From Lentimicrobiaceae bacterium (lineage in GTDB: Bacteria > Bacteroidota > Bacteroidia > Bacteroidales > F082), in NCBI GenBank assembly GCA_018661505.1, contig JABJIE010000007.1, positions 1 through 64,000 of the forward strand: DNA of 64,000 nucleotides, read 5' to 3'. The position numbers and the translations under genes are program-made. Shown here one piece after another: positions 2 to 4,943 of this stretch. Each line of letters starts with the position of its first letter. The stretch's first letter is position 1. The notes below the pieces were generated by a model. The model worked only from the letters and a program-made list of their open reading frames with translations, made no database searches and was not told the DNA's origin.

Positions 2-583
2 CATACAGATGTTATGAAAACACAGGCTCTACTTGCGGGCCTAGAAAAATATAAATTTGATGCTGCCTTTGGTGGTGCCAGAAGAGATGAGGAAAAATCT
101 CGGGCAAAGGAAAGAATTTATTCATTTCGTGATAAGTTCCATCAATGGGACCCAAAAAATCAGCGACCAGAGCTCTGGAGCCTATACAATGCAAAAGTTC
201 ATAAGGGTGAATCAATAAGGGTATTCCCCATTTCCAACTGGACTGAGCTTGATATTTGGCAATACATAAGGCTGGAAAATATCCCCATTGTTCCTTTATA
301 TTATGCCAAAGAAAGACCAGTGGTTGAAGATAACGGAAGTTTAATTCTTGTTGATGATGATAGAATGCCTAAGGAATTAAGAGATAAGGCAAAAATGAGA
401 ATGGTTAGATTCAGAACCCTGGGTTGCTATCCATTAACCGGTGCAATAGAATCCGAAGCTGATACCATTGAAAAAATAGTCGAAGAAATGATGACTGTAA
501 CAGTAAGTGAAAGAACCACTCGTGTTATAGATTTCGATCAGGAAGCTAGTATGGAGCAGAAAAAGAGAGAGGGTTATTTTTAA
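2..583 (+). CDS. cysD: Sulfate adenylyltransferase subunit 2 (partial, 5' end outside window)
   Basis: Small subunit of the heterodimeric ATP sulfurylase, which forms adenosine 5'-phosphosulfate (APS) from sulfate and ATP in the cytoplasm, driven by GTP hydrolysis in CysN. The frame is open from base 2 and reads HTDVMKT at once, matching the middle of the family; roughly the first 110 residues, including the PP-loop, lie outside the window. Family landmarks seen are [49 protein letters not shown] and the terminal KKREGYF. The internal ATG at 14 is not the true start. CysN follows after 47 bp on the same strand, the usual operon order. Confidence 0.97.
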
Positions 584-630: not shown

Positions 631-2535
631 ATGGACATTCGGGAATTTCTTGATCAGGATCAGAAAAAAGACTTACTTCGACTATTAACAGCAGGATCTG
701 TGGATGATGGAAAATCAACGCTGATAGGTCGATTACTTTTTGATAGTAAAAAGCTATATGAAGATCAGCTTGATGCCCTTAAAAGAGATAGTAAAAGGGA
801 GGGGCATGCCGGAGAAGAAATAGATTATGCTCTTTTGTTGGATGGGCTTAAAGCCGAAAGGGAACAAGGAATAACCATTGATGTTGCGTATCGCTATTTT
901 TCAACTTCCAAAAGGAAGTTTATTATTGCAGATACCCCAGGCCATGAGCAGTACACAAGAAACATGGTAACTGGAGCATCAACTGCAAATCTGGCGATAA
1001 TATTAATAGACGCGAGAAAGGGTGTTATAACACAAACTAAACGACATACATATCTTGTTTCATTGTTGGGCATAAAGCACGTTGTTTTGGCCGTAAACAA
1101 GATGGACCTCATGGATTACAGCCAAGAAGTTTATGACAACATATGTCGTGACTATAACAATTTTGTAACTCCTTTGGGCATACCAGATGTTAGGTTTTTC
1201 CCAATATCTGCACTAAAGGGAGACAATGTTGTTGATCTTTCGGATAAAATGCCCTGGTATCATGGAAAAAGTGTGCTGGAGCATTTGGAAAAAATTCACA
1301 TCGCGAGTGATAGAAATTATTCCGATCTCCGGTTTCCGGTTCAATATGTTGTTCGACCATCTCTGGATTACAGAGGTTTTTCCTCTCAGGTTGCATCAGG
1401 AATTATCTCGAAAGGAGATGAGGTGATGGTGCTCCCATCACGAAAAAAATCCTTTGTAAAAGAAATTGTAACCTATGACGGAAATCTTGATTATGCATTT
1501 CCACCACAATCAGTTACCATAACCCTTAATGATGAAATAGATATTTCACGTGGAGATATGTTGGTACATCCCAATAACTTACCTAAAGTAGAAAGGCATT
1601 TCGAGGCCATGCTAGTATGGATGGATGAATCTCCCATGAAAAATGGCACACAATTTCTCATTAAGCACACATCTCAGACTACCAAAGCAAGAATTGATAA
1701 AATTCAACATCTTGTTGATGTAAACACCCTTGAAAAGAGAAATTCTGATAAATTTGAGCTAAATGAAATAGGACGGGTGGTAATCACAACCACAAAACCT
1801 TTATTTTTTGATGCTTACAAGAAAAATAGGCAAACTGGTTCATTTATATTTATAGATCCTGTAACACATAATACATGTGCTGTGGGTATGATAATCGACA
1901 AACTCAGTAGCGATGATTTACCAAGTCGAATTATTGGTGTTGACAAGGAAAAAATTACCACAGGCGTGGGGTTAATTGCGAAGTCAGAATACGAATCCGT
2001 ATATCAGCAAAAGGGAGCAACAATATGGCTAACAGGACTGCATGGGTCAGGCAAAAATGAGCTGGCATACACCCTTCAAAAAAGCCTGTTTGATATGGGA
2101 GCAAAGGTTATGCTATTGGATGGTAAATCCGTTAGAGCTGGCCTAAGCAAAGAACTTGATTACACACCTACCGACAGGGCTGAACACATGAGGCGAGTTG
2201 CTCATATTTGTAAGTTAATGAATGACCAGGGGATCCTAGTTGTATGTTCATTTGTATCTCCCGATGAATCTGTCAGAAAACAAGTTGCCGAAATAATAGG
2301 AGAAGATAAATTTAGTCTTGTTTACCTGGATTCAGATATTGACTTTTGTCGTGACAATGATAAATACGGGCTATATGAAAAGGCTGATGAGGGAGCCCTT
2401 AAATATCTTCCTGGTGTTGATATGGAATATCAGGTGCCAAGCAAACCATCGCTTAAAATAGATGCTATCAATAGGGCTAAAAATCTTGAGTTATTAATAA
2501 ACTATCTCAACAAAAATAAAATATTCCCCATTTAA
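631..2535 (+). CDS. cysN: Sulfate adenylyltransferase subunit 1 with C-terminal APS-kinase-like domain
   Basis: GTPase subunit of ATP sulfurylase. The EF-Tu-like GTPase domain has G1 GSVDDGKST (residues 22-30), G2 REQGITID (77-84), G3 DTPGHEQ (101-107) and G4 NKMD (156-159), then two beta-barrel domains to about residue 450. At 634 aa it is longer than plain CysN (about 475 aa) because an APS-kinase-like domain is fused from about residue 460. That domain is degenerate: its Walker A reads GLHGSGKN (469-476) with Asn in place of Ser/Thr, and the usual DGDxxR reads DGKSVR (497-502). Kinase activity is therefore doubtful, although the NodQ/CysNC layout is clear. It is transcribed behind cysD. 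Confidence 0.95.
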
Positions 2536-2543
2536 TTTAAGGT

Positions 2544-3176
2544 CTACTTCCTACCATAATCCGCGGGTATCTCACCCCAGATTTTTGTTTTCCATTTGAT
2601 AATGGGGACATTAACGGGATTTGCTTTTAGCCATTCAACACTACTATCAAGAGCCTTGAACAATTCAATGTTCTTAGGTGTGCGAGCAAGTTTAGTATTT
2701 ACCCTTTTCTTTGTTATCCACGAAATTGCAGTTTTAGAGTCTGAGTATATGGGGTATTTAAGCTTGTTCTTTTTTAACCATGCCAACGCCAAAACGATTG
2801 CTAAGAATTCGCCAATATTAACGGTACCCATTTCGTATGGTCCACGATTGAAAAGTTCCGTTTCAGTATCTGTAAACACACCCCTAAATTCAAGTTCTCC
2901 AGGATTACCCTTACATGCAGCATCAACGGAAATACTGTTTAATATGGGTTTTTCATCTGTGGTTAACTCGTGAATGTTTTTCTTGCCCTTTAGTTGTGCA
3001 ATCTCCCAATACGACTTTTTATATGCATTAAGAGCCTCTTCATGATCACCAAAAGATTTATACTGTGCTCCTTCGTAACCATCAACCTGTTTCTTGCACT
3101 CATTCCAGCTATCGTATATACCAGGTTTTATGCCTCTCCACACCACATAAAATTTTTGCTTGGATTTTTTACTCAT
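2544..3176 (-). CDS. rnhA: Ribonuclease H1 with N-terminal viroplasmin-type domain
   Basis: Cytoplasmic endonuclease that removes the RNA strand of RNA-DNA hybrids. Residues about 7-50 (FYVVWRGIKPGIYDSWNEC, then YKSFGDHEEA) form the small hybrid-binding domain shared by eukaryotic RNase H1 and caulimovirus viroplasmin. The catalytic domain from about residue 80 has all four carboxylates: Asp in SVDAACKGNPG, Glu in NIGEFLAI, Asp in IYSDSKTA and Asp in IPADYGRK. At 210 aa it is full length for the Bacteroidota form. It converges on cysN with 8 bp between stops and is divergent from gldH. Confidence 0.93.
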   Translation of the reverse strand: MSKKSKQKFYVVWRGIKPGIYDSWNECKKQVDGYEGAQYKSFGDHEEALNAYKKSYWEIAQLKGKKNIHELTTDEKPILNSISVDAACKGNPGELEFRGVFTDTETELFNRGPYEMGTVNIGEFLAIVLALAWLKKNKLKYPIYSDSKTAISWITKKRVNTKLARTPKNIELFKALDSSVEWLKANPVNVPIIKWKTKIWGEIPADYGRK

Positions 3177-4621: not shown

Positions 4622-4748
4622 GTTTAGCTCTTTCTTTGTGCAAATTTACTCACAATAACATAATTAATAACGAAAATTGTGATACTTTTCGTATTGATGC
4701 AATAGTTTGCATTAGAATTTAATAAATTATTTGTGTGAATTTTAGAAG

Positions 4749-4943
4749 TTAGATTGTATATATTGTTTTTTGAACATGAAATTTATCTATGCTTCCATCT
4801 GCCAATATCTCCTCAAGCTCTTCTCCCATGAGTATATCAGCATCCAGGGGAGTTTTAAATAACATTAAAATTCGAATCTCCAAAGGTTCGAGGATTCTTT
4901 TACTTAAAATTTTTCTCGCCTGAGTGACATGCTTGCTTTTTTG
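4749..4943 (-). pseudogene. Coding-like frame directly after the ruvC stop (gene remnant?)
   Basis: In the same frame as ruvC, 64 codons stay open after its TAG up to a TAA at 4749-4751. The translation is protein-like (KILSKRILEPLEIRIL, then TPLDADILMGEELEEILADG). No plausible start codon gives a longer product than about 36 aa. RuvC itself ends where the family normally ends, so this is more likely the remains of a separate gene than a RuvC extension. I do not recognise the family. The rest of the 4622-4943 gap holds nothing I can name. Confidence 0.3.

Follow-up and report, generated by a model that had tools for sequence, protein, structure and literature searches.

A degenerate APS-kinase domain fused to CysN in Bacteroidota: a probable pseudo-kinase and candidate nucleotide sensor

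Does the APS-kinase-like domain at the C-terminus of a Bacteroidota CysN still phosphorylate APS and, if not, what could it do on the ATP sulfurylase? The question is raised by the first genes of the 64,000-nucleotide stretch analysed here (the window), which is the start of contig C60, window base 1 being contig base 1. The 3' part of cysD lies at 14-583 (+ strand; TIGR02039 CysD, 328 bits, profile positions 106-294), its 5' end being cut off by the contig start. It is followed at 631-2535 (+) by a cysN of 634 residues with a fused, degenerate cysC domain. The GTPase part of the ATP sulfurylase occupies 676-1893 (+; residues 16-421 of the TIGR02034 match, 616 bits) and the APS-kinase-like domain, in its Pfam extent, 2011-2463 (+; PF01583, residues 461-611, 161-165 bits, 165 bits for the domain alone). 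The match extends over the entire profile (positions 1-152 of 152), in agreement with a preliminary description of this gene that had called the domain full length. The domain order is that of bifunctional CysN/CysC proteins (NodQ; M. tuberculosis CysNC), and the protein matches the model of that family, NF004035, over its full length with 888 bits against a cut-off of 715. The product of the full-length ORF also passes the NCBI apsK cut-off (157 against 138.7). The two models are named 'bifunctional sulfate adenylyltransferase subunit 1/adenylylsulfate kinase' and 'adenylyl-sulfate kinase', so annotation based on such models will probably label this product a kinase.

In L006, the nearest relative at 95% identity and a member of the Lentimicrobiaceae by title, a full cysD lies upstream of cysN, with a NusG-like gene and a GFO/IDH/MocA oxidoreductase gene further upstream. 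Directly after cysN in the window, on the opposite strand (2544-3176, -), lies an RNase H gene with a Cauli_VI-type (RNase H1 N-terminal) domain. Further on, a 308-aa gene and ruvC stand about 320 bases apart (4622-4943); in L006 (6797-8795) the same two genes flank a TauD-family dioxygenase gene and a methyltransferase-like gene, so that an island appears to have been gained or lost near cysDN.

Active-site residues of the fused domain

Residues are given in M. tuberculosis numbering, placed via the sequence of 4bzq. In structures of M. tuberculosis CysC, as described in PMC4373884, K456 and S458 bind phosphate, D478 contacts a Mg-bound water and D480, whose mouse equivalent is essential, probably acts as the catalytic base; R559 stacks on the ATP adenine and K562 stabilises the transition state; APS is held by R483 and R497, on the phosphosulfate, and by F492 and F576, which sandwich the adenine. 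Active APS kinases have a P-loop GxxGxGK[ST][ST], an LDGD motif containing D480 and a lid with R559 and K562. In the window the P-loop is GLHGSGKNE (2035-2061, +; read in the DNA with its flank at 2035-2067), in which K456 is kept, S457 is replaced by N and S458 by E. The second motif is LDGKSVR (2116-2136, +), with D478 and R483 kept and D480 replaced by K. DRAEHMR (2173-2193, +) keeps R497 and has H for N500, the start of the lid (2347-2376, +) has N for R559 and Y for K562, and LPG stands instead of FTG at 2407-2415 (+; F576 to L, T577 to P). Both phosphosulfate contacts are thus arginines, and canonical bifunctional CysN/CysC proteins, unlike this fusion, keep the kinase motifs. The preliminary description had inferred a loss of key residues from the Asn that ends Walker A and the Lys that replaces the second Asp of DGD; both were found in the DNA, and the loss had been understated, since it extends to S458, to the two lid residues and to FTG.

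We aligned 166 distinct domains with those of the fungal 1i2d and the human 2ofw, and sorted them into 76 degenerate domains, 35 canonical fusions, 47 canonical kinases not placed as CysN fusions and 8 others. The degenerate class was defined by N or R after the P-loop lysine together with the absence of D480, and canonical fusions keep GK[ST] and LDGD by definition. The degenerate class consists of 74 Bacteroidota fusions (two of them, L035 and L060, cut or frame-broken), L063 from Acidobacteriota and a separate 250-aa protein that is no fusion (L196:1091-1840). Among the 74 Bacteroidota fusions, position 457 is N in 72 and R in 2 (S/T in none) and position 480 is S in 41, K in 31, T in 1 and N in 1 (D in none), these two rows holding by class definition. 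The remaining rows are independent of it. S458 is E in 48, with other residues elsewhere, and S/T is kept once, as a T (twice in the class of 76, in L063 and L135). R559 is kept in 0/74 (N in 60, others in the rest), as is K562 (gap in 42, Y in 25, G in 4, D in 3); F576 is kept in 2/74 and N500 in 17/74 (H in 54/74), and T577 has become P in 70/74. By contrast, K456 is kept in 74, R483 in 73, S524 in 72, R497 in 70 and D478 in 69 of these fusions, and 64/74 have F or Y at 492. The alignment with CysC and other Bacteroidota CysN C-termini, which had been proposed as a check, thus shows losses that are common to the 74 fusions, and by these residues catalysis and most of the ATP side appear to be gone and the phosphosulfate side retained. 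All 56 Bacteroidota loci from L006 to L061 share the N of the P-loop, and their second Asp is replaced by K in 27 and by S in 29, which rules out a sequencing or assembly error or a single odd strain.

With D480, K562, the P-loop hydroxyls and R559 gone, the domain would no longer phosphorylate APS, and we hold it to be, with high probability, a pseudo-APS-kinase whose kinase function has been lost. A counterpoint is the retention of D478, the Mg-water contact, which is not called for by a loss of Mg-ATP binding alone. Because such a protein can pass kinase cut-offs, as that of the window does, PAPS synthesis in Bacteroidota should not be claimed from genomes without a check for a separate cysC.

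Separate CysC and users of PAPS

A separate intact cysC, for which the preliminary description had proposed to look, is present in the window's genome. It stands alone on contig C42, with the canonical motifs GLSGAGKTT and LDGDNIR, and adjoins an inositol-monophosphatase-family, cysQ-like gene. The fused domain shares the fold of this CysC, with 33% identity, but not its canonical residues. Three sulfotransferase loci were found in the same genome, where both PF13469 and PF00685 were searched (PF00685 in this genome only). The presence of an intact cysC and of sulfotransferases indicates that PAPS is most likely made, and by the separate enzyme, from which it would pass to the sulfotransferases if these genes function as their families suggest. 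The earlier proposal that the fused domain keeps PAPS from being made is contradicted by these genes. Its other half, a regulatory or APS-binding module, is upheld insofar as the lost residues, the kept fold and phosphosulfate arginines and purifying selection point to a non-catalytic domain that possibly binds APS.

The reductase of the window's genome, also put forward for inspection, is encoded on C83. This CysH has the FeS motifs CCxxRKxxPL and GCxxC; it passes TIGR02055 (APS_reductase, 264 against 235) and fails TIGR02057 (PAPS_reductase, 186 against 254). The broader NF002537 ('phosphoadenylyl-sulfate reductase') is passed as well (288 against 154), so the label of APS reductase rests on the FeS motifs. 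Cysteine synthesis would then run via an FeS-type APS reductase, as the family assignment of this gene suggests. CysH was read in 16/20 genomes of the order sample described below that carry a degenerate fusion, and 15, the window's included, have the FeS motifs; they were not found by pattern in the CysH of G145, which has CysC, and four further genomes (G076, G045, G182 and G078) gave a CysD-like match only in the CysH search. With an FeS-type CysH in most of these genomes, the reductive branch there should need no PAPS. In G182 and G078, the fusions (L131 and L134) have a GKR P-loop and EGS for DGD and lie in a run of cysC, cysD, cysN and sulfotransferase genes, much like the PAPS gene cluster of Bacteroides thetaiotaomicron described in PMC9417993.

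Two samples were searched: 198 genomes of the order, with the best 18 first-look candidates per genome scored, and 395 genomes of the phylum, with the best 9 scored. PF01583 matched in 121/198 order genomes, many of the matches being weak. When the loci were read, the fusion proved degenerate in 20 genomes and canonical in 3, and a separate CysC was found, among the best 18 candidates per genome, in 12/20 of the former and 0/3 of the latter. Ten of 16 further named Bacteroidota genomes with a degenerate fusion also have one, which brings the total to 22/36; in 14/36 no separate CysC was found, which in unfinished genomes may reflect missing data.

On score and reading-frame length, 72 genomes of the phylum sample were classed as having a high-scoring fusion; in 18 of them the frame is 573-606 aa long, and these may be fusions of another kind than CysN-CysC. 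Against the 22/36 degenerate-fusion genomes with a separate CysC, a separate APS-kinase match was seen, among the best 9 candidates per genome, in 1/72 (G550), itself degenerate, and G305 has a second fusion. The two low-scoring fusions of this sample, those of the window's genome and of G284, are both accompanied by a separate CysC. Twenty regions were read from this sample: 18 are canonical CysN-CysC, L214 is degenerate and L210, whose reading frame opens with a canonical kinase, is no CysN-CysC. Any second match was found in 3/11 genomes with canonical fusions, namely a separate one in G614, two further long-frame copies in G620 and the degenerate L069:8272-9045 in G621.

Were PAPS a product of the fused domain, genomes that have the fusion alone would be expected to use PAPS as often as the others. 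We counted PF13469 (Sulfotransfer_3) matches, this family alone and with E up to 1e-6, in 25/36 genomes, comprising the 20 degenerate-fusion genomes of the order sample and 5 selected from the 16 named ones. They occur in 12/15 degenerate-fusion genomes with a separate CysC against 1/10 without (Fisher p 0.001, relatedness ignored). The exceptions are G158, G004 and G589, with CysC and no PF13469 match, and G052, 85% complete, with PF13469 matches and CysC not found. As a control, 2/3 genomes in which a canonical fusion is the only APS kinase have a PF13469 match (seven in G013, one weak in G165). In the complete genome of Draconibacterium orientale (L061/G596), the fusion is present and neither CysC nor a PF13469 match was found. 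Sulfotransferases thus track the separate CysC and not the fusion, and most likely no PAPS is formed by the fused domain. An APS kinase working by an altered mechanism, for example with a P-loop Asn replacing Ser and with a different base, would be in keeping with the fold, with K456, with the mostly kept D478 and with the apsK cut-off passed by the domain. We regard it as very improbable, as D480 (essential in its mouse equivalent according to PMC4373884) and K562 are lost in 74/74 and 9/10 genomes with the domain and no CysC found have no PF13469 sulfotransferase.

Fold, constraint and possible roles

We modelled the domain with AlphaFold2 from 51 aligned domains (1966-2532; pLDDT 96, pTM 0.91). 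The best solved matches are APS kinases, which together with the Pfam score of 165 bits assigns it the APS-kinase fold (3uie_A, Z 28.7, rmsd 1.4, 188 residues aligned), and the fungal allosteric domains 1i2d and 1m8p follow with Z 25.9 and 26.4 and 31 and 30% identity. Dead and live APS kinases have this fold in common, so that the match speaks for an intact domain and no more.

Pairwise dN/dS of the domain, computable in 13/15 degenerate pairs, ranges from 0.019 to 0.186, several of the dS values being near saturation. Between the window and L006 it is 0.094 for the domain and 0.066 for the GTPase part, and the GTPase part has the lower value in 11/12 pairs with both. The domain is constrained, though less so than the GTPase part, and values of 0.02-0.19 indicate that it is not a freely decaying relic. 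One could still suppose that the kinase became redundant once a separate CysC took over and that the domain is merely tolerated. Besides the faster change of the domain, a decay series speaks for this: a high-scoring CysN subtype (at least 590 bits) occurs in 34 order genomes, of which 20 have the full-length dead domain, 1 a canonical one (in G032, truncated where the contig ends) and 13 neither; these 13, which have no PF01583 match listed on CysN, retain a shortened remnant (8) or a short tail only (5), and a separate CysC accompanies 13/13. Against it stand, apart from the dN/dS values, the full length retained in 14/36 genomes without CysC found and a set of residues present in 90-100% of 72 degenerate fusions (a count that excludes the separate protein L196:1091-1840) and in at most 10% of 82 canonical kinases. 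These are E, D and N (72/72 each), two Q (71 each), N457 (70), P577 (69) and two H (66 and 65), each found in at most 7/82 canonical kinases, N457 partly by class definition. We therefore judge tolerated decay unlikely. The shrunken or all but absent domain of the 13 related CysN nevertheless means that it is not needed everywhere. The shortened remnants (L222-L226, L228, L230 and L232), at the CysN C-terminus, are missed by PF01583 and found by a dead-domain profile.

A dead APS kinase on an ATP sulfurylase is known from fungi. The C-terminal domain of the P. chrysogenum enzyme (1i2d/1m8p) is without kinase activity and confers allosteric control by PAPS, as reported in PMC3734648 and, for this precedent, PMC3779200. 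Like the window domain, it is an APS-kinase fold at the C-terminus of an ATP sulfurylase in which the P-loop hydroxyls are lost (D stands for S457 and A for S458), as are R559 (now S) and K562 (now R), and in which R483 and R497 are kept. Unlike it, it sits on a Sat-type sulfurylase, unrelated to the GTP-driven CysDN, keeps D480 and loses D478, the reverse of the window domain, and keeps F576, which the window domain has lost. Since the fungal domain binds PAPS with D480 and F576 in place, the match between the two systems is incomplete; PAPS regulation is known for the fungal domain, to which the window domain is likened by sequence and fold. Here the dead kinase sits on a bacterial CysN and is conserved well beyond this genome; in the literature searched we found neither a dead kinase as a control point on bacterial CysN nor a degenerate CysC on one. 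In fungi, feedback has been described as acting on the sulfurylase itself, and a conserved dead kinase would give bacterial CysN a control point of this kind.

On this basis, we favour a dead domain that senses APS or a like nucleotide on CysDN, as the best of several readings and with about an even chance of being right. The retained fold, the P-loop lysine, R483 and R497 suggest that binding of APS or a similar nucleotide has most likely been retained; once bound, the nucleotide would report the product level to the fused sulfurylase, whose APS output would be damped or shaped. The pocket is kept about equally in the 14 genomes without CysC found (R483 in 13, R497 in 14, K456 in 14) and in the 22 with CysC (22, 20 and 22), which makes APS, CysDN's own product, a likelier ligand than PAPS. 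The poor retention of F576 and N500 means that the affinity for APS may be low or the ligand another. A general role as partner of a separate CysC, or as a PAPS-only sensor, was discarded, as the same pocket is kept in 14/36 genomes without CysC found.

The main rival to sensing is scaffolding, in which the dead domain is kept for a dimer interface, for the oligomeric state of CysDN or for docking a separate CysC for APS handover, and senses no ligand. Yeast ATP sulfurylase has a comparable domain, with a role in hexamer assembly. PMC3779200 gives that yeast domain no defined function, and CysC of M. tuberculosis is a dimer (PMC4373884). The whole fold is kept in the window domain, and in the 9 genomes tabulated with cysC on the contig of the fusion the two are on the same strand, 2.4-4.3 kb apart in 8 and 11.8 kb in one. 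Scaffolding leaves unexplained, however, why R483 and R497 are kept beside lost catalytic residues, and docking of CysC cannot be the general role when CysC was not found in 14/36 genomes. We consider scaffolding possible but doubtful.

Origin of the dead domain

The history of the domain was followed in a tree from which six active-site columns had been removed and L072 left out as a near-copy. Seven further CysN fusions, from Gammaproteobacteria, Planctomycetota and Nitrospirota (L062, L064, L065, L068, L070-L072; the X group), resemble the window domain in having lost D480 and K562 and kept R483 and R497 in 7/7, but differ from it in keeping the P-loop hydroxyls and R559 in 7/7, so that ATP may still bind in them. 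The degenerate domains, from five phyla (Bacteroidota, Acidobacteriota and those of the X group), form one clade (99/93, 20/49 rows), in agreement with an earlier quick tree; closest to this clade is the canonical fusion of G165, a genome of the window's order (95/89). Joining the X domains to the proteobacterial canonical fusions was rejected (p-AU 0.005, domain tree). A tree of the CysN parts, in which some branches are very long, is contrary to this and puts the X group amid proteobacterial canonical fusions. Owing to this conflict the dead domain may not have arisen only once: either it was transferred from one CysN gene to another or common losses draw the domains together. A second APS-kinase match was found in 8/8 genomes of the X group and L063, one of them partial; these second kinases were judged by score, and the sequence was read for L065 only.

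The retention of the P-loop hydroxyls and R559 in X domains that have lost D480 and K562 suggests that catalysis was lost before the ATP site. For at least five phyla, one may tentatively picture a dead APS kinase on CysDN, old and inherited, whose ligand is APS and not PAPS; feedback on sulfate activation would have been reached independently of the fungal domain on Sat, the loss of D480 and K562 coming first and that of the ATP site following in Bacteroidota. This wider picture we think could well be wrong.

Further degenerate forms were also seen. A CysN of Victivallales (L074:594-2441) ends in a more eroded domain in which the P-loop and LDGD are unrecognisable, and no PF01583 match was found in its genome, G613, with E up to 1e-12. 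L069:8272-9045 (Denitrovibrio) and L196:1091-1840 (G550) are separate APS-kinase relatives of 250-258 aa with IDS for LDGD, each directly upstream of a canonical cysN-cysC, and perhaps represent another degenerate lineage with a role of its own.
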